A stretch of 64,000 bases of DNA. Source: Dorea longicatena. GTDB taxonomy: Bacteria; Bacillota; Clostridia; Lachnospirales; Lachnospiraceae. The notes under the pieces were generated by a model. The model ran no database searches. It was not told the origin of the DNA and was given only the letters and a program-made list of their open reading frames with translations. How positions within the stretch are numbered: the stretch's first letter is position 1; each line of letters begins with the position of its first letter. The stretch lies in contig NZ_CP100126.1 of NCBI RefSeq assembly GCF_024168045.1, forward strand, positions 203,501 through 267,500, given 5' to 3'. A program made the translations under genes and the position numbers. This document shows positions 33,162 to 43,026 of this stretch, in pieces.

Positions 33162-33220
33162 GGCTTATATAAGGGAAACTCCGAAAGTACAAAAGGAAAA
33201 TGCAGACATACATCAAAATG

Positions 33221-33257
33221 CCCTTGCATAGATTGTAAAAAACAATTTATGCAGGGG
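33221..33257 (+). promoter_or_regulatory. Hairpin over the spoIIID ribosome site
   Basis: CCCTTGCATAGATTGT (33221-33236) pairs with ACAATTTATGCAGGGG (33242-33257) over 16 bp, two of them G-U, with a 5-base loop. The right arm contains the AGGGG ribosome site, and TTATTTTT then the ATG follow. It could be an attenuator or a translational switch. Confidence 0.7.
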
Positions 33258-33265
33258 TTATTTTT

Positions 33266-33397
33266 ATGAAAGATTACATTGAGGAGAGGGCAGTAGAAAT
33301 CGCATATTATATCATCGAACATAAAGCCACTGTGCGTCAGACCGCGAAGGAGTTTGGGGTTAGTAAGAGTACGATACATATAGTAGTAATAAAATAG
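33266..33397 (+). CDS. spoIIID: SpoIIID, 5' half of an interrupted gene
   Basis: Encodes 43 residues: MKDYIEERAVEIAYYII, then EHKATVRQTAKEFGVSKSTIH, which is the N-terminal half of sporulation regulator SpoIIID, then five foreign residues (IVVIK) and a stop. SpoIIID is the mother-cell DNA-binding protein that works with sigma-E and is needed for sigK expression in B. subtilis. The break is inside the helix-turn-helix, after the His codon CAT. The rest of the gene is at 42874-43026 in the frame that continues this one. AGGGG is eight bases before the ATG. Confidence 0.93.
   Translation: MKDYIEERAVEIAYYIIEHKATVRQTAKEFGVSKSTIHIVVIK
33376..33380 (+). other. Left attachment core (attL) of the spoIIID element
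   Basis: ACATA at 33376-33380 also occurs at 42873-42877. The bases just outside differ on both sides, so the shared core is exactly 5 bp, as small as expected for a serine recombinase. Within spoIIID it spans the codons ATA and CAT and the first base of the next codon. Confidence 0.88.
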
Positions 33398-33661
33398 AAC
33401 GTTATACAAATATAATATATTCAATCAAATAAGATATAGAAGGAAGCAAGTTTGAAGAAATATTTGGGTGGAAATATTTGTTTGGGCTTGCTTTTAGTGT
33501 TTTTATATGAAGTTAGATAGCAGATTGAAAAGGAAATAGATAGGTGTTATATTTTAGATAATGAAAATGGAATTATTGATTAGGATAATTGATTTACATT
33601 AAAAATATACCAGAAGAAAATAAAAAGGAAGATATATTGAAAGGATTGGGGGACCATTTAA
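33398..33661. other. AT-rich gap inside the left end of the element
   Basis: No complete gene. It contains a hairpin AAGCAAG (33444-33450) / CTTGCTT (33487-33493) with an inner AAATATTT repeat and a following TTTT, which may be a terminator. An open fragment (about 33594-33674; IKNIPEENKKEDILKGLGD) looks like the tail of a lost gene. Confidence 0.45.
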
Positions 33662-35386
33662 TTGAGAAAATGTGAGAATATTTATGAAGAAATATGTGCT
33701 CTCGAACCAGTTGTTGATTCCTTGCCTTGTGTACATAATAATATGACAATGCAGGGAAGAAGAAAAGTTTTTTATATAAGTGATATTCATTGTGATATGA
33801 AAATGAAAAAGGGATTTAAGGATTTTTCTGATAAGGAATATATAAATCATGTTATTAAAAAGATGAACGGAGATGATCCATTTGGGGATAATCCATTGAT
33901 TATAGTGGGAGATATTGATTGTTGTACAGAAAATGTGGATTATTTTTTTTCACAGCTTAGAATGCGCAGAGATGGTATTATAATTTTTGTATTGGGAAAT
34001 CATGAGATATGGGCTTATGACATGGCGGTTTCTGATTTAGATGAAATAATTAAAAGGTATCGAGTTATTTGTAAAAAACATGATGTGATAATGCTACAAA
34101 ATGAATTGGCATTCTTTTATGATGATAGAACAGGAAATGGAGAATTACTTTCGTTCAGTCATCATCATGTAATTTCGGAAAATGAATTATCAGAGTTAGC
34201 AATTGATGAAATACAAGTGTATGCAGAAAAAGCAAAAATGATTGTATTTGGAGGACTAGGTTTTTCCGGAAAGTGTAAAACTTTAACATCAGAAGGTAGT
34301 ATATATAATGCTGATATAGGATTATATAGAGATGCTGTTCCTACGCTTGCGGAAGATATTATACAAGCAGAAAAAAGTGAAAAAGCATATTTAAAAGTAT
34401 TAGAAGCATTATCTAATTATAATGTTATTATTGCAACCCATTGTCCGCTGGATAATTGGAGTGAAAGGGGCTATAATTCTAATTTCATCTATCTTAGTGG
34501 GCATACACACCATAATATATTTCATATGTCCTCAGATAAAACAGTTTTCGCAGACAATCAGGTTGGATATTCTAGTGATGATTACGATTTGAGATACTTT
34601 TTAATTAACGGTACATATGATAGCTTTATAAATTATTCTGATGGTATTTATAAGATTACATATGAACAATATATTGATTTTAATATTGGGAAAAATGTTA
34701 GATTAAAAAAGAAAAATGATGGAAAGCAAATTGTATTATTAAAAAAGGGCTTTGCACATATGTTTGTATATTATAATCGTAGTAATAAACTGATGCTATT
34801 AAATGGAGGTAGTCCAAAACAGCTTTATCATGAATTGAATTATTATTACAAAAATCTCGATAAATATGTGTCTAATATAAAAACAATAATGAATTCTTAC
34901 ATGGATAAATTGTTGAATATCTCTAAAGTAATTAAATCAATTGGTGGAGATGGTAGTATTCATGGCTGCATTGTCGATATTGATTATTATAATCATATAT
35001 ATATTAATCCGGTGGATGGAAAAATTACCCCATATTTTGCGTATGATATGGAACAAAAATATGTATATAAAGATTTATATACACTTCTTGCAGAAAAGAA
35101 GCCTTCTTTACTTTCAGGATATGTTGAATGGCAAAAAATCGATTCAAATAATGAAATAGTTGTTCGAAACACAGAATTAACAGATTTAGCTGTTTTAGTG
35201 ACGGATAAAAAAATATATAGTGCTTCGAAAATTATAAAATCAATTCAATATCTTTTATTTCAAGATGTTGTTAGAGAGTGGAACGATAAAATATTGCGTA
35301 TAAGTAATAGAGAAGAGACTATTGGAGAAATGGAAAGACTAGAAATTGATAATAGCATTTATCAGTCAATTCTGCAAAGTAATTAA
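33662..35386 (+). CDS. Calcineurin-like metallophosphoesterase with large C-terminal domain
   Basis: 574 residues, cytoplasmic. Residues about 35-290 carry the phosphoesterase motifs in order: YISDIHCD, VGDIDCC, LGNHEIW, ATHCPLDN and LSGHTHHN, all metal ligands present. The C-terminal ~280 residues match nothing I know. The TTG start has GGGGG ten bases upstream; no better start is visible. It is the first cargo gene after attL and stands alone, very AT-rich. It may be a nucleic-acid or nucleotide hydrolase used in defence, by context only. Confidence 0.75.
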   Translation: MRKCENIYEEICALEPVVDSLPCVHNNMTMQGRRKVFYISDIHCDMKMKKGFKDFSDKEYINHVIKKMNGDDPFGDNPLIIVGDIDCCTENVDYFFSQLRMRRDGIIIFVLGNHEIWAYDMAVSDLDEIIKRYRVICKKHDVIMLQNELAFFYDDRTGNGELLSFSHHHVISENELSELAIDEIQVYAEKAKMIVFGGLGFSGKCKTLTSEGSIYNADIGLYRDAVPTLAEDIIQAEKSEKAYLKVLEALSNYNVIIATHCPLDNWSERGYNSNFIYLSGHTHHNIFHMSSDKTVFADNQVGYSSDDYDLRYFLINGTYDSFINYSDGIYKITYEQYIDFNIGKNVRLKKKNDGKQIVLLKKGFAHMFVYYNRSNKLMLLNGGSPKQLYHELNYYYKNLDKYVSNIKTIMNSYMDKLLNISKVIKSIGGDGSIHGCIVDIDYYNHIYINPVDGKITPYFAYDMEQKYVYKDLYTLLAEKKPSLLSGYVEWQKIDSNNEIVVRNTELTDLAVLVTDKKIYSASKIIKSIQYLLFQDVVREWNDKILRISNREETIGEMERLEIDNSIYQSILQSN

Positions 35387-35980
35387 TATATAAGAAATTC
35401 TACATGAATAATAAAGAGCAAGATCCATCCGGGTAATACCGTATCGTAATAATTGAAAATAATATTTAGAAATTAGGAATATTATATTGGCTACATTGAA
35501 AATGTAAGCAGGTAAAAATTGAATATTTTTTACAGAGCATCTGGCAGAAGCCGGGTGCTTTTTTGAATATTTTGAAAGAAAATATCATGTAAATGGTGCG
35601 GAAATCTTTGATGGAAGCTAATTAGATGAAGATGAAATTGAATCAAGAGGATAAAAATAGAATATTCATCAAGAATAAACTTGTTAAACACAGGTGAATC
35701 TTGCTCTTGTATAAAAATTCAGATTAAAAAGAAGAAAGAAATAACAAAGAGCGAGATTCACTAGGGATTTATAGTACCTTAACTGGTTCTCTGCTTATCT
35801 TTAAGATTATGCGGAATTTTGGGATGCACAGTAATGAAATTATGAAAAAATTAAAAAAATTCTGATGAGGGGGCTGTATTTTATGCCCTCTCCCTTTGTA
35901 TATATAGAGGGATAAATTTTTGTGGATATAAAATTCAAAAATATATTTCCTCAAATATTGAGAAGGTGAGGAAGAAACAA
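35387..35980. other. Non-coding stretch with repeats and a terminator
   Basis: No intact gene. It holds a terminator (35536-35564), a decayed open fragment just after it (FFEYFERKYHVNGAEIFDGS then a stop), and a repeated 14-mer AAGAGCRAGATYCA at 35414-35427 (+), 35695-35708 (-) and 35747-35760 (+). The last two form an imperfect ~17-bp inverted repeat 33 bases apart. It lies just before the replication initiator gene. Confidence 0.5.
35536..35564 (+). terminator. Terminator after the metallophosphoesterase gene
   Basis: AGCATCTGGC (35536-35545), AGAA loop, GCCGGGTGCT (35550-35559), with three G-U pairs and six T. Confidence 0.8.
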
Positions 35981-36538
35981 ATGAAATATTTGTACATGAA
36001 TGAGCAGGAGCGGCAGAAGCAGTATTATTAATTTCCAAAATTCTTGCTGGAATTACAGCTAAGTCAGAATGCAAGAATTATTTATATGCTGTTGTATGAC
36101 CGGGCGAGAATATCACGAAAGAATAATTGGACAGATGAGGATGGAAGAGTATATGCAATATTTCCAATTGAAGAACTATCACAGAAAACCTGGAAGTGCA
36201 AATCTTCTGTTAAAAAGGCTTTGAAAGAACTAGATGATGCAGGACTGCTAATTCGGAAATTTGGTGGATTTTCAAAACCAAGACATATGTATGTAATGAT
36301 ACCAGACAAAGTAGAGGTTTCTGGAAAGGTACAATTACAGACAGATATAAAGAAAGCCGATAGAGAGTTAAAAAATGAGCTTTCATATGGTCAGAATGAT
36401 AACTCTACGAAGGATATAAATACGGCATCTAATAAAGTAATAGAGAAAAATAACTCAAGTAATAAGTATGGAGTAAGTAGTTACAGTATAAAGAATCAAA
36501 AGATGAATTATGAGTGTGGGGAGGGAGAAAGCCTGTGA
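35981..36538 (+). pseudogene. RepA_N-type replication initiator with an internal nonsense codon
   Basis: Reading from ATG 35981 gives MKYLYMNEQERQKQYY, then TAA at 36029-36031, then in the same frame FPKFLLELQLSQNARIIY and YDRARISRKNNW, the RepA_N winged-helix pattern (family: YYQ-x-PKFLL). One base change, CAA to TAA, explains the stop. The remaining 164-codon frame could restart at TTG 36044 but lacks a clear ribosome site. The C-terminal part is short and Asn/Ser-rich. Its stop overlaps the start of the DnaC-like gene (TGATG). Confidence 0.75.
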
Positions 36539-37326
36539 TGTATGAGATACAAACATATTTAGGCGCAGATGGATTGATGCATTGTACTGTTTGTAAAGAA
36601 CCCGTAGAAGCATTTTATCCAAAAGGTTCTTTGCTTGAAATGAGAAAGCATCACAGGCAGTGTGCGTGTGAAAGGAAGGCATATGCAGAAGAGGCACAAT
36701 ATTATAAAGAAAAAGAGCATCGGGAGCTAATCGCAAGAAATAAGAAAATCTGCTTTGAGGAAAAAGAAATGGAGGGATTTACATTTCAAAATGTAGAAAG
36801 AGATAGTGGCGTTATAAGAATCGCAGAAGAATATGTAACAAACTGGCAAAAAATGAAGCAAAACCATATGGGATATTTGTTCTGGGGACCAGTTGGAACA
36901 GGAAAAAGTTATCTGGCTGCTTGTATTGCGAATGCATTGCTGGAAAAAGAAGTTACCGTGAAAATGACAAATTTCAACACCATATTAAATGATTTGTTTG
37001 CAGCTGAAGACAAGACAGAATATATCAGATTATTGAATGGATATGAGCTTTTAATTATTGATGATCTTGGTGTAGAACGGAGCAGTGAGTATGCATTAGA
37101 AAATATTTTCGGTGTGATTGATTGGAGATATCGATCGGGGAAACCTTTGATTATCACAACAAATCTTCCTTTAGCACAATTAAAACAAGAGACAAAAATT
37201 GAGAAGAAAAGAATTTATGACAGAATTCTGGAAAGATGTATTCCGGTAAAAATTGATGGAGTCAGCAGACGAGAAGCCATGGCAAATGACAATATGCAGA
37301 CTATGAAAAACATTCTGAAAATCTAG
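36538..37326 (+). CDS. DnaC/IstB-like helicase-loader ATPase
   Basis: 262 residues. N-terminal cysteines (CTVCKE, later CACER) suggest a zinc site; the AAA+ core has Walker A WGPVGTGKSY (about 117-126), Walker B LLIIDDLG, sensor ITTNLP and an Arg-finger region IYDRILERC. It loads the replicative helicase onto an element origin, in partnership with RepA_N initiators. The start ATG overlaps the stop of the initiator gene, so translation is coupled. Confidence 0.85.
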   Translation: MYEIQTYLGADGLMHCTVCKEPVEAFYPKGSLLEMRKHHRQCACERKAYAEEAQYYKEKEHRELIARNKKICFEEKEMEGFTFQNVERDSGVIRIAEEYVTNWQKMKQNHMGYLFWGPVGTGKSYLAACIANALLEKEVTVKMTNFNTILNDLFAAEDKTEYIRLLNGYELLIIDDLGVERSSEYALENIFGVIDWRYRSGKPLIITTNLPLAQLKQETKIEKKRIYDRILERCIPVKIDGVSRREAMANDNMQTMKNILKI

Positions 37327-37394
37327 GACTATTTCAGGAGGAATTTTCATAGTAATGGACAAAGAGTGAGCAGGGAGGAGGTGGAAACTTCACC

Positions 37395-37559
37395 GTGGCG
37401 AAAAGAAAACTGAACTATCGATTTCATAATCCAAATCCGGTGGAAGTAACCGCCGATTACATATTGAAAGTGATGATAGAAGCGAATACTGAGAAGGTGG
37501 AGAAGATATTGCGGGAGAATATGGTGCAGATGGAAGTAAATGAATGTGAACTGGGATAA
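37395..37559 (+). CDS. Small element-borne protein of unknown function
   Basis: 54 residues from GTG 37395: MAKRKLNYRFHNPNP, VEVTADYILKVMIEAN, then a charged helix. Similar short proteins follow dnaC-like genes in Clostridia elements. AGGAGG is 13 bases upstream, which is far. No known function. Confidence 0.6.
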   Translation: MAKRKLNYRFHNPNPVEVTADYILKVMIEANTEKVEKILRENMVQMEVNECELG

Positions 37560-37655
37560 AGCGGATAGATGAGGAATGGATTGAAAGTCATTAATATGAA
37601 GTCTAAGGTGTATAATTTTGCCGAAAATTGCCGAAATGTAAATTATAATATAAAA

Positions 37656-37674
37656 TATGAGATTTCATCTCATA
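37656..37674. promoter_or_regulatory. Palindrome upstream of the AbiL-like operon
   Basis: TATGAGAT-TTC-ATCTCATA, perfect 8-bp arms, 77 bases before the operon start. A TTGCCGAAA direct repeat lies just upstream (about 37618-37636). Possibly an operator; no regulator is identified. Confidence 0.45.
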
Positions 37675-37750
37675 AAACTATTGCTAAAATAAAAAAACGG
37701 AATATAATAAGGATATAGGCAAGAAGTTTGGACTAATGGAGGTAAATAAG

Positions 37751-38977
37751 ATGTTATGCCAATTTACAGTGAAAAATTTTAAGAGTATACGGGATGAGGT
37801 AACATTTGACATGCAGGCTGCCGCCATTTCTGAGCATGAAGACAGAATTATAAAAGATAAAGATGAGGAATTATATTTACCGGTATCTGCTGTATACGGA
37901 CCAAATGGTGGAGGCAAATCTAATGTTCTTGAAGCGTTACACAGTCTGGTTACGAAGGTGTTGAGACCATTATATGCTACAAGTAATAACGAAGAGATTG
38001 CAATAAAAATGAAAAAGCTTGTGATAGAGCCGTTTGCTTTTGATGAAGAAACAAGAAATGAGCCAACAGAATTTGAACTGTTTTTTAGAACGGCAATGGC
38101 AGAGTATCGCTATGAATTAACCGTAAAAAAAGAAGTAATCGAATACGAAAGGTTGGATCGTATAAAATTAGAAACAGGGCGGAAATCAGCACTTTTTGAA
38201 CGAGATGAAGATGAAATTAATTTGAAAGGTGCATTTGCAAGATTGAAAACCAGTGATGAATTATCCGATACATTGCCGTTGTTATCGTATCTTGGAATTA
38301 CTTACAGCAAAAATGAAGTGGTACAGGATGTGCTTGACTGGTTTGATGAAGAGATTGATTTCCTGAATTATGGAAATCCTATGCAGGAATTACGAATGGC
38401 TGTTTCTAAGTCAGAGGATGTAAAAAGACTGATGCTTCAGATGATTCAGGAGATGGATTTGGATATTGTAGATTTCCGTGTAGAAGAAAAGGAGAATGAC
38501 CGGATCGAAGTATTTACAAAACACGTAGTAGATGAATATGAAGCAGAATTGAATTTATTTGATGAATCCAGTGGAACAAAGAAATTATTTGGATTGCTCC
38601 CATTTATTGCAAAAAGTTTATTGAGAGGAACGACACTTGTGATTGATGAATTGGATGCAAAGATACATCCGGTATTACTTAAATACCTTATTATGACTTT
38701 CAGTAATATGGAAAAAAATAAAAAGGGTGCACAGTTGATTTTTACATCACATGATCTGTCTACTATGAACAGTGAAGTATTCAGAAGAGATGAAATCTGG
38801 TTTGTAGCAAAAGGAAACCGTCAGAACTCAAAATTATATTCTCTTGTAGAATTTAAAAATAAGAAAGGTGAATCTGTACGAAAGGATGCCAAGTTCGATA
38901 AACAGTATCTGGAAGGGAAATATGGTGCAGATCCATACCTCAGAAAGATTATAGATTGGGGGACGGTGAATGGCTAA
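37751..38977 (+). CDS. AAA family ATPase, AbiLi/RloA-like
   Basis: 408 residues of the AAA_15/AAA_21 SMC-like kind: KNFKSIRDEVTFDM at the start, Walker A GPNGGGKSN (about 54-62), and near the end VIDELDAKIHPVLLK and FTSHDLSTM. With RloB encoded next it matches the AbiL abortive-infection pair. In such pairs the ATPase senses or regulates and the partner acts, a view taken from related systems. The start is ATG 37751, eight bases after GGAGG; the next gene overlaps by 8 bases. Confidence 0.82.
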   Translation: MLCQFTVKNFKSIRDEVTFDMQAAAISEHEDRIIKDKDEELYLPVSAVYGPNGGGKSNVLEALHSLVTKVLRPLYATSNNEEIAIKMKKLVIEPFAFDEETRNEPTEFELFFRTAMAEYRYELTVKKEVIEYERLDRIKLETGRKSALFERDEDEINLKGAFARLKTSDELSDTLPLLSYLGITYSKNEVVQDVLDWFDEEIDFLNYGNPMQELRMAVSKSEDVKRLMLQMIQEMDLDIVDFRVEEKENDRIEVFTKHVVDEYEAELNLFDESSGTKKLFGLLPFIAKSLLRGTTLVIDELDAKIHPVLLKYLIMTFSNMEKNKKGAQLIFTSHDLSTMNSEVFRRDEIWFVAKGNRQNSKLYSLVEFKNKKGESVRKDAKFDKQYLEGKYGADPYLRKIIDWGTVNG

Positions 38978-39674
38978 AAGAGGCAGAAAAGAGAAAGACA
39001 ACTGGAAGAAGAAACGTCGGCAGGAATATCTGGAGAAGAAAGAATTCCGCTACTACATTTTCTGCGAGGGACAAGCAACGGAACCTAAATATTTTCAAGG
39101 ATTCAAACGGTATATTGAAGATAATCCCATTTATCGAGATATGGTTTTGATTGAAATTGAAGGCTGCCAGGCTGAGACGATGCGGGTAATCGGAAAGGCT
39201 GAAGAGTATGTGCGTGAGAATAAGATTACGAAAGGGCAGATATGGTGTGTCTATGATAAAGACAGTTTCCCATCCAGTGATGTCAATGGAGTAGTCCAGC
39301 GGGCAGAAGTATTAAATCAAAAGAATCCGGATATTCAGTATCATGCGGCGTGGAGTAACGAGTGTATCGAATTCTGGTTCATGTTACATTTTGCATATTA
39401 TACGGCAAATAATCACAGATCTGAGTATAAAAAGTTTTTGAATGAGAAATTTCAGGAACTGGGAATTGGGAAGTATGAGAAGAATATGGATGACATATTT
39501 GAGACGCTGATGAATGGTGGAAATCCGAAGTTGGCAATTCGATATGCAAGACGGATTATTAACAATGGAAAAGGGAAAACACCTGCGGAGATAGCACCAG
39601 GAACGAAGGTGTATGAGTTGGTGGAGGAACTGGCGAAGTATTTGCCGGGGAAACAGAAGAAATGTTTTGACTAG
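38970..39674 (+). CDS. RloB-like protein, AbiLii-type partner
   Basis: 234 residues. The basic N-terminus (KRGRKEKDNWKKKRR) is followed by the RloB core: YYIFCEGQATEPKYF, then VWCVYDKDSFP-like (IWCVYDKDSF) and SNECIEFWFMLHF. The acidic residues in CEG and YDKDSF recall a Toprim-type metal site, so it is the candidate nuclease of the pair; that assignment is inference. It overlaps the ATPase gene by 8 bases. Confidence 0.83.
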   Translation: MAKRGRKEKDNWKKKRRQEYLEKKEFRYYIFCEGQATEPKYFQGFKRYIEDNPIYRDMVLIEIEGCQAETMRVIGKAEEYVRENKITKGQIWCVYDKDSFPSSDVNGVVQRAEVLNQKNPDIQYHAAWSNECIEFWFMLHFAYYTANNHRSEYKKFLNEKFQELGIGKYEKNMDDIFETLMNGGNPKLAIRYARRIINNGKGKTPAEIAPGTKVYELVEELAKYLPGKQKKCFD

Positions 39675-39689
39675 AGAGGAAGAGTGTGA

Positions 39690-39956
39690 ATGAAAGATTT
39701 AAGTAGAAATGTAAAATTATATTGTGATGTATGCGGTAATGATCAATTTTCAATAATAAATGATATTGACTGTGAATTAAAGGAGGCTCCAGATGAAACA
39801 AAGATGCAATGTTCGGATTGTGGAAAGATTTTCACGAAAGCTGAGTTGATTGAATTAAATCAAGAAGTAATAGAGGCTAATATAGAGGATATAAAAAAAG
39901 AGGCTGTTAAGGAATTTGAAAAAGAATTATCGAAAGTACTAAAGAAATGGAGATAG
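39690..39956 (+). CDS. Small zinc-ribbon protein in the AbiL-like operon
   Basis: 88 residues: CDVCGN and CSDCGK form a four-cysteine zinc ribbon (about residues 12-48), followed by a charged coiled coil (VKEFEKELSKVLKKW). It is 15 bases after rloB and 6 bases before the next gene, so it belongs to the operon. Function not known; perhaps it binds nucleic acid or a subunit. Confidence 0.65.
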   Translation: MKDLSRNVKLYCDVCGNDQFSIINDIDCELKEAPDETKMQCSDCGKIFTKAELIELNQEVIEANIEDIKKEAVKEFEKELSKVLKKWR

Positions 39957-39962
39957 TCTTAG

Positions 39963-40487
39963 ATGAACGAGGAAATTGTGAATTGTTTTAATATTGTAAT
40001 AGAAGTTGTAAAAGGCGTAGCATTGTACGTTATGCCGATAGCGGCTTTTATTGTCTCACTTATTGCATTGAAACGTTCTAATGATACGATGAAGGTACAA
40101 GTTCAGTTATCAGAAGTGGAAGAAAAATTAAAGGAATATGAATTGGCATTAAAGAAACGTGAATTAGAAAAGATTCAAGCAGAAGAAAATAAGGAGAAAA
40201 AAGCTAATATAGAAGCAAGAGTTATTAAGATTTCAAAAGGAAGTTATAGATTGAAAGTGTGGAATTCAGGTAATGAAACAGCATATAATGTTGAGGTTTC
40301 TATTCCTAAAGAATATAGTGTCATTATTATGAAAGACAAGATGCCATTTGAATATCTTGAACCAGGAAATAGCTTTGAAGAATGTGTTGTAATACATATG
40401 CAATCAGCTCCTAAGTTTAAGGTGATTTCGAAATGGGAAGATGAAATGGGAAATGAATTTTTGAACGAGCAATTGCGTAGTTGTTGA
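39963..40487 (+). CDS. Membrane-anchored coiled-coil protein
   Basis: 174 residues: one membrane helix (about 15-35), a coiled coil (about 48-85, VEEKLKEYELALKKRELE), and a beta-sandwich-like domain with LKVWNSGNETAYNVEVSIP, similar to CARDB/Ig-like folds. Topology suggests the sandwich is cytoplasmic if the N-terminus is outside. Third gene downstream of the AbiL-like ATPase; role unknown. Confidence 0.6.
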   Translation: MNEEIVNCFNIVIEVVKGVALYVMPIAAFIVSLIALKRSNDTMKVQVQLSEVEEKLKEYELALKKRELEKIQAEENKEKKANIEARVIKISKGSYRLKVWNSGNETAYNVEVSIPKEYSVIIMKDKMPFEYLEPGNSFEECVVIHMQSAPKFKVISKWEDEMGNEFLNEQLRSC

Positions 40488-40520
40488 AAATATGAATAGG
40501 GAATACAGAAGGAGAAAACA

Positions 40521-41180
40521 GTGAAATTAAAGAATGTGATAGATAAGATCGAAAAATCAAAAAATCTGATAGAACTAATTATAATGTTTATAACTGCAAT
40601 ATGTACGGTCATTGGTGTATATTTGGGGTTTGCACAAATTAATTCAACTCTCAAAGAACAACGATTTTCTAATAGGTTAGAATTGGCAGATGATTTGATG
40701 AGTGAATATATGACTTTATCAAGTCATGGAAGTAAAGCAGTATTCTATTTAGTTGCCGATGCTAATGGTGAAGCTGATGAACTTATAAAAATAGATAGTA
40801 ATTATCCTAATTATATGCAAATGCATTCGGAAGAGTTAGAGAACATTAAAGGGAAGATTGCGGCGTATGGTTCTACTGAACTTGTAAATCTATTTTTTGA
40901 TTCCTATAATAGTATTCAAATGAAACTTGAAAATGGTAAAGGAGATTTAGAATCATATAAATATTATTTCTATTCAATGCCTTTGTTAGCATCGTGTATT
41001 AGATATGATTTGATAGGAGAAAAAGTAAATCCTTCAATTTTTTATAATTCTTCTATGCGCGAACTGAAAACATTGGAGGCAGCAAGCGGAATGGAAGATT
41101 TTCATGAGAAAATGATTTCTACAAATGATGAATTAGTGGAAAAGTATGGCTTGCCCAAGAAATTTATTTGGAAAGAATAA
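40521..41180 (+). CDS. Membrane-anchored helical protein of unknown function
   Basis: 219 residues: membrane helix at about 18-38 (LIEYLIIMF-like, here LIELIIMFITAICTVIGVYLG), then a helical soluble part with RFSNRLELADDLMSEYM. It resembles DUF4760-type membrane proteins in layout but I do not recognise it surely. It ends the putative five-gene defence operon and is followed by a terminator. Confidence 0.6.
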   Translation: MKLKNVIDKIEKSKNLIELIIMFITAICTVIGVYLGFAQINSTLKEQRFSNRLELADDLMSEYMTLSSHGSKAVFYLVADANGEADELIKIDSNYPNYMQMHSEELENIKGKIAAYGSTELVNLFFDSYNSIQMKLENGKGDLESYKYYFYSMPLLASCIRYDLIGEKVNPSIFYNSSMRELKTLEAASGMEDFHEKMISTNDELVEKYGLPKKFIWKE

Positions 41181-41196
41181 TAAAGTATGTGTTGAA

Positions 41197-41244
41197 GAAA
41201 GTAGAACACTTATTAATGAAAGGGGTGATCTACTTCCTTTTTTT
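41197..41244 (+). terminator. Terminator isolating the recombinase gene
   Basis: GAAAGTAGA (41197-41205) / TCTACTTCC (41229-41237) with seven T. It separates the cargo operon from the recombinase. Confidence 0.75.
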
Positions 41245-41245
41245 G

Positions 41246-41273
41246 TTTACAAATTCTTTTTTGGATATATAAT
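41246..41273 (+). promoter_or_regulatory. Vegetative-looking promoter of the recombinase
   Basis: TTTACA (41246-41251), 16-base spacer, TATAAT (41268-41273), 45 bases before the ATG. This is sigma-A-like. I could not convince myself of a sigma-E promoter here. Confidence 0.6.
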
Positions 41274-41318
41274 AAAAGATGTAACAGAACGATACAGCTA
41301 TAACAGAGAGGTGATACT

Positions 41319-42878
41319 ATGAACATTGCAGCCTATTGTCGAGTCTCCACCGACAAAGCCGATCAGCTCAACAGTCTGGAAGCCCAAAAGGAATTTTTCT
41401 CAGAATACACAAAACGCACAGGGGACACTTTAGTAAGAGTATATGCAGATGAAGGCATTTCCGGAACTAAAATTAAAAATCGTAAAGAATTTCTTCGCAT
41501 GATGGCTGATGCAGAGCAGGGATTATTTGATATGGTTGTTGTAAAAGACATCTCTCGTTTTGCAAGAAATACTGTAGATCTTTTACAAAATGTCCGTAAG
41601 CTAAAATCATTGGGAATCGAAACGCAGTTCTTAACCGCAAATATGACCAGCATGGGAAACAGCGAATTTGTACTTACCATCTTTGGAGCTCTAGCACAGG
41701 AAGAAAGTGCCAATACTTCCAAGCGTGTAAAATTTGGAAAGAAGATGAACGCAGAAAAAGGACGAGTTCCGAATATTGTATATGGATACGACAAAACAAT
41801 CGGAGATTATTTTAATCTTGCAATCAATAAAGAAGAATCTAAAGTTGTACAGCAGATTTACAAGTGGTACACAGAAGAAGGTTACGGTGCTGCTAAGATT
41901 GCCAATATGCTAAATGAAAAAGGTTATAAGACAAAACGAAATTGCAAATGGAGTCAGAATGCAACTTGCCGTATTTTGACAAATGAAATATATACTGGAA
42001 AAATTATCAATGGCAAGCAAGAAGTCAGTGATTTCCTAACAGGTCAGAGAAGAGATAAGGACGAGACAGAATGGATGGTAGTGGAGCGGCCGGAACTTCG
42101 AATCATAGAAGATGAGACATTTGAAAAAGCACAGGAGATTTTAAGAGGCAGACATGATGCATTTAATCTTAGTCACGAACGGCAGAGTAATAAGCATCTG
42201 TTTTCGACATTGATCAAATGTAAAGAATGTGGCTGGTCCTTCCGTAGAACGGTTCGTACTTATAAGAACACGTATGTACGGTGGGTATGCTCGGGGCGAA
42301 ATGGCCGGGGCGTAGATAGCTGCCCCAATAAAACGGTTGTGGATGAGGAAGAACTCATTGAAGTTCTGCAGGAATATTTTACAAATGTATTGAAACAAAA
42401 GAAAAAAGTGATTGCTCATGTGGTAAATGAGTTTCAGCGTGTATATAAAGCTAAAGATGAAAATGTAGAGTACGAAAAAGAATTAAATGCAGAACTTGCT
42501 AAATTGCAAAAGACCAGACAAAAATATATGGATATGTATACGGATGATTTGATTTCTCGTGAAGAGTTGAATGAGAAGATTGGTGGTTCTCGCCAGGAAA
42601 TGGAACGAATAGAAAATGAACTCAAGATGGTATCTTATCATTTAACCAAAGGGGAACAGTTAGAGAATATTTTAAATAATACATTTAAAGAAATTGAAGA
42701 CATTACTGATGTACACCAGATGACCAATCAGCAGTTAAAGCGATTGATTCAGAAGATAGAAGTAGATAAGGATGGAAATGTAGATATTTATTTACGCTTG
42801 CTTGGAGATCTTGGGTTAGATGAGTCTGTATTAATTGAAGAAAATGAAACCGTTCTAAATTGTGACGACCAAACATAA
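41319..42878 (+). CDS. Large serine recombinase of the spoIIID element
   Basis: 519 residues: resolvase domain with the catalytic Ser in YCRVSTDKADQ (Ser 10) and the arginine helix DISRFARN, the Recombinase domain (about 170-270), a zinc ribbon (CKECGW ... CSGRNGRGVDSCPN, about 303-340) and a coiled coil (about 365-450). This is the size and layout of the skin recombinase SpoIVCA and Tn4451-type TnpX. GAGAGGTG precedes the ATG. Its stop codon TAA (42876-42878) overlaps the attachment core ACATA, so excision would remove the stop. Confidence 0.94.
   Translation: MNIAAYCRVSTDKADQLNSLEAQKEFFSEYTKRTGDTLVRVYADEGISGTKIKNRKEFLRMMADAEQGLFDMVVVKDISRFARNTVDLLQNVRKLKSLGIETQFLTANMTSMGNSEFVLTIFGALAQEESANTSKRVKFGKKMNAEKGRVPNIVYGYDKTIGDYFNLAINKEESKVVQQIYKWYTEEGYGAAKIANMLNEKGYKTKRNCKWSQNATCRILTNEIYTGKIINGKQEVSDFLTGQRRDKDETEWMVVERPELRIIEDETFEKAQEILRGRHDAFNLSHERQSNKHLFSTLIKCKECGWSFRRTVRTYKNTYVRWVCSGRNGRGVDSCPNKTVVDEEELIEVLQEYFTNVLKQKKKVIAHVVNEFQRVYKAKDENVEYEKELNAELAKLQKTRQKYMDMYTDDLISREELNEKIGGSRQEMERIENELKMVSYHLTKGEQLENILNNTFKEIEDITDVHQMTNQQLKRLIQKIEVDKDGNVDIYLRLLGDLGLDESVLIEENETVLNCDDQT
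42873..42877 (+). other. Right attachment core (attR) of the spoIIID element
   Basis: ACATA, identical to 33376-33380. Left of it is recombinase coding sequence; right of it is the 3' half of spoIIID, beginning AAGACTGCACC in frame. Confidence 0.88.
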
Positions 42879-43026
42879 AGACTGCACCGACCGCCTGGAG
42901 CAGATCAACCCGACCCTGGCGCAGAGCGTCCGCAAAGTTCTTGACGTGAACAAACAGGAACGCCACATCCGCGGCGGACTTGCCACCCGGGAGAAATATC
43001 TTCATCAGCATCGGCACGCAGGATAA
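42874..43026 (+). CDS. spoIIID: SpoIIID, 3' half of an interrupted gene
   Basis: From CAT 42874 the frame reads H-KDCTDRLEQINPTLAQSV, RKVLDVNKQERHIRGGLATR, EKYLHQHRHAG and TAA at 43024. This is the C-terminal half of SpoIIID with its basic HIRGG-ATR-KYL tail. It has no start of its own. Joined to codon 38 of the 5' half it gives 87 residues, the normal size. It is clearly GC-richer than the 5' half and the element. The reading frame is free of stops, so it looks maintained. Confidence 0.93.
   Translation, partial: HKDCTDRLEQINPTLAQSVRKVLDVNKQERHIRGGLATREKYLHQHRHAG

Follow-up and report, generated by a model that had tools for sequence, protein, structure and literature searches.

An element with its own recombinase splits spoIIID at codon 38 in Dorea longicatena and is predicted to be excised in the mother cell

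Several sporulation genes are interrupted by intervening elements, and excerpts of a 2023 paper name sigK, spsM, spoVFB, gerE and yabG as the targets (PMC10747680). In the window analysed here, a stretch of 64,000 nucleotides from Dorea longicatena (contig NZ_CP100126.1, positions 203,501 to 267,500), such an element lies inside spoIIID. The element has the marks of the skin-like class, that is, insertion into a sporulation gene, exact restoration of the frame on removal, a recombinase of its own and short core repeats. It is not a skin element proper, since the target gene is spoIIID and not sigK. The class is thus otherwise known, and spoIIID is a target beyond the five genes named above. 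Searches of open-access PMC papers (without bioRxiv), judged from abstract starts and excerpts, found no paper on an intervening element in spoIIID, and an earlier note on this DNA likewise named none. In the sequences we observed exact restoration of the reading frame, one target codon in two families of bacteria, dyad-symmetric arms of the attachment (att) sites, and a recombinase together with a small gene in all 17 complete elements. We consider, with a probability of roughly three in four, that a mobile element at codon 38 of spoIIID is excised in the mother cell, restoring a gene of 87 codons.

Three described elements resemble this one. The skin element in sigK of Clostridioides difficile has a constitutive recombinase under sigma-A and a small directionality factor under sigma-E, and its excision restores a mother-cell regulator, as is predicted for the spoIIID element (excerpts of PMC5025042). 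It differs in its target, sigK, and in that its directionality-factor gene also requires SpoIIID, according to the same excerpts. Such a requirement would be impossible for the spoIIID element, because SpoIIID would be the product of the excision. The gin element in gerE of Bacillus cereus ATCC 10987 is also not a prophage, interrupts the gene of a small mother-cell transcription factor, permits exact restoration, and carries a serine recombinase, an extra excision factor and a restriction-modification system (excerpts of PMC5595907). As described there, gin belongs to the sigma-K stage and has three recombinases, 28.6 kb and a 9-bp core, whereas the window element lies in spoIIID, earlier in the cascade, with one recombinase, 9.5 kb and a 5-bp core. 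The yin element in yabG of Clostridium botulinum is likewise a serine-recombinase element in a sporulation gene that yields an excised circle; unlike the present element, it is prophage-like, is described in one strain and sits in a later gene, with circles at all time points (excerpts of PMC10747680).

The split gene in the window and in other genomes

The spoIIID gene begins with ATG at 33266, and its N-terminal frame runs up to His38 (33377-33379). From the left ACATA (33376-33380) to the right ACATA (42873-42877) there are 9,497 bp. The features of the split gene are as follows.

33205..33234, plus strand: spoIIID promoter-like site, GACATACA, a 14-base gap and CATAGATT, about 39 bases 5' of the ATG; placed and spaced like those of other spoIIID genes, activity predicted
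33266..33379, plus strand: spoIIID N-half, codons 1-38, from the reading frame and the joined gene
33376..33380: left core ACATA (attL), from junction comparison
33380..33404: attL inner arm (ATAGTAGTAATAAAATAGAACGTTA), from junction comparison
33381..42877: intervening element, 9,497 bp from one core to the equivalent position of the other, from junction comparison
42845..42872: attR inner arm (ACCGTTCTAAATTGTGACGACCAA region), from junction comparison
42873..42877: right core ACATA (attR), from junction comparison
42877..43026, plus strand: spoIIID C-half, codons 39-87 and stop, from the reading frame and the joined gene

When the halves were joined in silico, they gave 87 codons and a stop ending at 43026. 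The joined product scored 134 bits against TIGR02844 (spore_III_D), above the cut-off of 111.5, matched residues 1-80 of SpoIIID 2L0K, and reached 160.0 bits on a model built from 56 intact SpoIIID sequences. The interruption falls at codon 38, between SKSTIH and KDCTDRL, which we take to be the recognition helix of the DNA-binding domain. The earlier note had claimed a skin-like element whose removal restores the frame exactly, with ACATA at both edges; the joined gene, the coordinates of the cores and the use of the same codon in relatives bear this out. Since five common bases could occur by chance, the proof of an element was taken from other genomes.

Genomes were scanned with the recombinase of the element, and the best 80 of 187 relatives were retained, so that the locus counts describe close relatives. 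Directly 3' of the recombinase, 75 of the 80 loci had a readable spoIIID C-half that begins at the codon used in the window. In one more locus (L027) the first codons of the C-half are visible before the contig ends, and another (L071) stops at the junction and is uninformative. Of the 79 informative loci, 76 thus have a recombinase relative inserted in spoIIID at this codon. In 16 loci the N-half is present too; its left junction falls on this codon as well, and the elements measure 3.8-10.8 kb. All 75 readable C-halves are open, and the 17 joined genes score 132.6-161.0 on the model from intact SpoIIID, on which intact sequences range from 142.5 to 161.9. No uncut spoIIID was found at E <= 0.01 in any of 20 relatives' genomes with an interrupted locus; in one of these (G003) the C-half alone was found. 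One locus (L054) had appeared to hold an uncut gene after the recombinase; its junction showed that the alignment merely ran into the recombinase end. Another genome (G108) has 75 kb between the halves and a recombinase (81.5%) beside the C-half, the intervening stretch having been read in part.

The hosts are mostly named Lachnospiraceae, Oscillospiraceae and other Clostridia, with a few metagenome bins named, for example, Bacteroidales or Muribaculum. Many of the relatives are metagenome assemblies, and an artefact of assembly or binning, in which unrelated pieces were joined or strains mixed, might produce such junctions. The same arrangement was found in the isolate genomes of Blautia massiliensis GD8, Schaedlerella arabinosiphila and Extibacter muris, and we regard an artefact as hardly credible.

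The frequency of the split gene was estimated in two family samples, one of 150 genomes from the family of Blautia massiliensis and one of 100 genomes from the family of a Pseudoflavonifractor. Both centres (G006 and G012) had been picked for being split, and the family names were taken from the centre loci. In the first sample spoIIID was matched in 102 genomes, in full length in 90, and 48 genomes had no match. Both halves were present in nine (G006, the centre, and G002, G042, G063, G080, G108, G125, G131 and G164), and the other three without a full-length match showed the C-half only (G162), probably a contig end (G117) or an ambiguous case (G022). One genome (G037) was counted as full-length through a 59% paralogue, its other copy being split. 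In the second sample spoIIID was matched in 86 of the 100 genomes, in full length in 70. Both halves were present in 14 (G012, the centre, and G181, G187, G191, G194, G199, G205, G207, G234, G237, G241, G243, G263 and G267); the halves of G243 overlap, maybe through an assembly break, and G219 and G260 are partial. Without the centres, the split fraction is 9/101 in the first sample (eight and G037; 10 if G162 is added) and 13/85 in the second (12 if G243 is removed). The gene is split in about one tenth of the sampled spoIIID-bearing species of one family and about one seventh of those of the other.

Further arrangements were seen at spoIIID and in the recombinase family. All three extra spoIIID N-halves of one locus (L151, genome G018) are accompanied by promoter-like sequence and a left att arm (one decayed). 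An extra N-half stands upstream of an intact spoIIID in L153 (G113), and a decayed one in L154 (G036). The paralogue of G037, full-length and 59% identical, lies just upstream of the split gene (L152). Three members of the recombinase family (L010, L029 and L032) are sited outside spoIIID; the left att arm is preserved in L029 and L032, which suggests off-target integration, and the flanks of L029 resemble an IS66 transposase gene.

Recombination sites, small gene and promoters

Two genes of the element are predicted to act in its excision.

37395..37559, plus strand: 54-aa small protein, likely a recombination directionality factor
41319..42878, plus strand: large serine recombinase, 519 aa, whose TAA stop (42876-42878) overlaps the attR core

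The recombinase carries the Resolvase, Recombinase and zinc-ribbon domains of a large serine recombinase, and the claim of the earlier note that the element ends in its own enzyme of this type was correct. The best NCBIfam matches, CcrB and XisF, were rejected as its identity, since they scored 157 and 124 bits where the curated cut-offs are 900 and 375 bits.

When the attR and attL inner arms of the 17 elements were joined via ACATA, they gave a dyad-symmetric consensus centred on ACCATA-CA-TATGGT (computed with the window attR row displaced by one base). Four IMG/VR contigs carry a recombinase 72-73% identical to that of the window, an unbroken attP and the small gene. Three of the four read alike, and they therefore represent two distinct phages by the region read; their attP match 45 and 43 of the 57 positions of the consensus. 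These viral contigs encode phage DNA polymerase (L141 and L144) and tail proteins (L141). The predicted joined attP therefore exists in nature, in phage relatives of the elements. In PLSDB plasmids 554 records of the recombinase were found, and in phage records 565, all below 60% identity; the best phage record (L145, 58.8%) itself ends in a spoIIID C-half.

Among 75 integrated recombinase genes, those of 74 loci and of the window, 63 stop at a TAA formed with the host His-Lys codons at attR. In the joined circle the frame usually extends for 14-18 codons, 15 of 25 tails ending at codon 14, and the tail can be read directly in free phages (YRSNKIERLIWRIK in L142). Since the stop lies on the attR core (42876-42878 in the window; compare L141 and L142), integration removes a C-terminal tail of the free form. 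There are exceptions: the stop comes after four codons in L025 and after nine in L152, and the integrated frame of L031 enters the SpoIIID C-half. Codon-position entropy stays flat past the att arm (1.38, 1.43 and 1.49), so that selection on the tail as protein is unproven. Removal of the tail on integration may help to set the direction of recombination.

The small gene is present in all 17 complete elements, whatever their cargo, and in 69 of the 80 loci, the remaining 11 of which are truncated within 6 kb on the upstream side of the recombinase. Linkage was analysed in 22 genomes called split from spoIIID alone (both centres and G002 excluded) and 58 with full-length spoIIID. The recombinase (E <= 1e-100) was found in 16 of the 22 split genomes, at 44-84% identity and always ending within 80 bases of the C-half, versus 1 of the 58 intact ones (G182, 44% identity). 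The split genomes without a recombinase match are G080, G131, G162, G234, G241 and G243. The small gene was found in 13 of the 22 versus none of the 58. The gene product is likely a recombination directionality factor, as judged from this arrangement of the genes.

It is possible, though we think it unlikely, that the small protein serves otherwise, for instance as a repressor or in copy control, and that something else triggers excision. The window protein matched no Pfam or NCBIfam family, and among the 120 listed of its 3,206 relatives in the protein set there was no Pfam domain. Its AlphaFold model is one long helix, and the protein also occurs in phages. Its constancy in the 17 complete elements regardless of cargo, tied to the recombinase family, speaks for a role in recombination. 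In L022, L024, L025, L026 and L028 no ATG, GTG or TTG precedes the conserved part of the small gene, which open reading frame (ORF) calling missed; these copies may start at a rarer codon.

The promoters bear on when excision would occur. In Bacillus subtilis and C. difficile spoIIID is under sigma-E control, and the same is assumed for these genomes. A promoter matrix was built from spoIIID itself, using 47 of 56 intact spoIIID promoters selected by a CATA 33-43 bases 5' of the start. The following sites lie in the window.

37326..37355, plus strand: sigma-E-type site of the small gene, GGACTATT, a 14-base gap and CATAGTAA; score 5.92, below the shuffle threshold of 7.33
41246..41273, plus strand: sigma-A-like recombinase promoter, TTTACA, a 16-base gap and TATAAT, by hexamer match
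41282..41311, plus strand: two TAACAG repeats 5' of the recombinase start

The set of small-gene upstreams comprised 48 of 65 matches and the window, 49 in all. Scores above the 95% shuffle level were obtained for 37 of the 49, versus 2 of 79 recombinase upstreams, and a sigma-E promoter on the recombinase was thus rejected. The same conserved site (GACTATT, a 14-base gap and CATAG) was the best sigma-E-type site in 42 of the 49, with a variable spacer between a conserved -35 and a conserved -10. Excerpts of PMC3789822 give ATA in the -35 of sigma-E promoters and a -10 common to sigma-E and sigma-K. Sigma-A hexamers with at most two mismatches occur in 34 of the 79 recombinase upstreams versus 3.9 expected, and TAACAG in 61 of the 79 versus 3.1 expected. 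The TAACAG repeats of the window resemble both the att arms and the SpoIIID box KRTAACARK of C. difficile (excerpts of PMC5025042). Either SpoIIID or the recombinase may therefore exert feedback here.

We infer the following order of events. The recombinase would be made in growing cells from the sigma-A promoter and would not excise the element alone. Sigma-E would then turn on the small protein in the mother cell, and the two proteins together would recombine attL with attR, so that the element would leave as a circle and spoIIID would be rebuilt. Since sigma-E is inactive in the forespore, that cell would retain the element and transmit it, at little cost to the host. The earlier note had proposed that excision in the mother cell gates late sporulation; the constancy of the small gene and the sigma-E-type sites support the proposal indirectly.

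Excision could instead be occasional or dependent on growth phase throughout the population, with the cells of empty site going on to sporulate. The circles of yin are present at all time points in excerpts of PMC10747680, phage members need another exit route, and the small-gene site of the window is weak. The distribution of sigma-E-type sites between small-gene and recombinase upstreams points to developmental control, and we regard such population-wide excision as quite improbable.

Sporulation genes, spread and the points against excision

Whether carriers still sporulate was judged from two other genes. The spoIVA gene was found in 42/42 split, 18/18 intact and 3/20 spoIIID-less genomes, and the sigK family (in which sigE was caught too) in 42/42, 17/18 and 3/20, respectively, the split set coming from both families and the other two sets from the first family. 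These counts bear on the explanation that the insertion simply breaks spoIIID, that the carriers have lost or are losing sporulation, and that the element is a plain parasite. That explanation agrees with the lack of observed excision and with the absence of spoIIID from many sampled Lachnospiraceae (48/150 without a match). Recombinases also move among hosts faster than spoIIID diverges, and the insertions could be young. The retention of spoIVA and the sigK family, the 75 open C-halves and the resemblance of the small-gene promoter to that of spoIIID in most copies tested speak against it, and we consider it improbable.

The divergence values call for care with one of these arguments. That of the recombinase is often far below that of spoIIID (dS 0.039 versus 1.66 for L015 and L017). 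Recombinases closer to each other than the adjoining spoIIID halves mean horizontal spread with repeated hits at one codon; the element, treated in the earlier note as a feature of one strain, turned out to belong to a widespread, horizontally moving family with phage members. We therefore dropped the open C-halves as proof of use.

The following points weigh against excision in the mother cell. Given the horizontal spread, many insertions may be recent, and a C-half can be open without being used. Neither an excised spoIIID junction nor a circle of a spoIIID element was seen in viral contigs, plasmids or phage records. For the excised attP of small elements, pattern searches of viral contigs gave nothing or only known phages, plasmids gave no match, and the matches in four phage records (weak and partial, E 0.03-0.4) were taken as chance. 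Three joined genes fall under the score range of intact SpoIIID. Of the 65 small-gene matches, 17 were left out before the promoter count, 15 for a variant start motif and 2 for a short upstream, and the site of the window scores below the threshold. Three of the 13 small-gene matches in split genomes are weak (G037, G191 and G080; E 5e-6 to 2e-4), that of G191 being on the opposite strand, and the single helix modelled for the small protein belongs here as well.

The sigK gene is also in two halves in four split genomes (G016, G037, G187 and G267), which would mean two rearrangements in series; it is split without a split spoIIID in G041, G043 and G044. The likeness to skin recombinases was gauged through the protein of the sigK-element of G016 (L155, C23:3000-13000): this serine recombinase is 25% identical to that of the window over 253 residues.

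A wider claim would be that spoIIID excision is a common developmental switch in gut Clostridia, and we see the chances for and against it as evenly balanced. In this claim one recombinase family and a new class of directionality factor, common to defence elements and temperate phages, would make the first mother-cell regulator dependent on rearrangement in about a tenth or more of species, some genomes would need excision from spoIIID and then from sigK, and the recombinase would report its own state through trimming of its tail. If excision must rebuild spoIIID, the sporulation of many gut Lachnospiraceae and Oscillospiraceae depends on a carried mobile element, and serial control of development by DNA rearrangement becomes testable. 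Gene callers would split or miss spoIIID, and spore formers could be marked as non-sporulating. The system also provides a new recombinase whose attB, attP and directionality factor are predicted, and it shows that defence genes and phages have landed repeatedly at one sporulation codon.

As to sporulation in these hosts, excerpts of the Schaedlerella paper (PMC11352710) contain no statement on it, and those of PMC12888040 merely mention spoIIID differences between two Anaerostipes strains. The spoIVA gene of G012 is in two pieces about 252 kb apart within one contig (C20:236830 and C20:489488), maybe another interrupted gene or a rearrangement, and that of G263 is likewise in two pieces.

Cargo of the elements

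The window element carries the following further genes.

33662..35386, plus strand: 574-aa protein weakly resembling phosphoesterases (TIGR03729, E 5.9e-4, well under cut-off)
36044..36538, plus strand: RepA_N-like protein, by domain search
36514..37326, plus strand: DnaC/IstB-like ATPase (NF005992, above cut-off)
37736..38977, plus strand: AbiLi-like AAA ATPase (PADLOC, E 3.5e-85)
38970..39674, plus strand: AbiLii/RloB-like protein (PADLOC, E 4.9e-30)
39690..41180, plus strand: three ORFs (39690-39956, 39963-40487 and 40521-41180) without a Pfam match over cut-off

Both proteins of the AbiL pair known to PADLOC are thus matched by adjacent genes, an AbiLi ATPase and its AbiLii partner, here as putative defence cargo of an element in a sporulation gene. 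The named relatives of one protein of the window are from Dorea and Faecalicatena, at 47-49% identity. PADLOC was applied to the window pair, and the 17 complete elements were compared with that pair by BLAST clustering. In this way AbiLi relatives were found in 7 and AbiLii relatives in 6 of the 17. Type II restriction-modification genes occur in two elements (L033 and L063) and a type IIG gene in another (L024). Defence-like genes are present in at least 9 of the 17, as judged from the part of the cargo scanned. The sigK-interrupting element of G016 has an AbiLi/AbiLii pair of its own; this element shares a contig with the split spoIIID and lies about 50 kb away from it.

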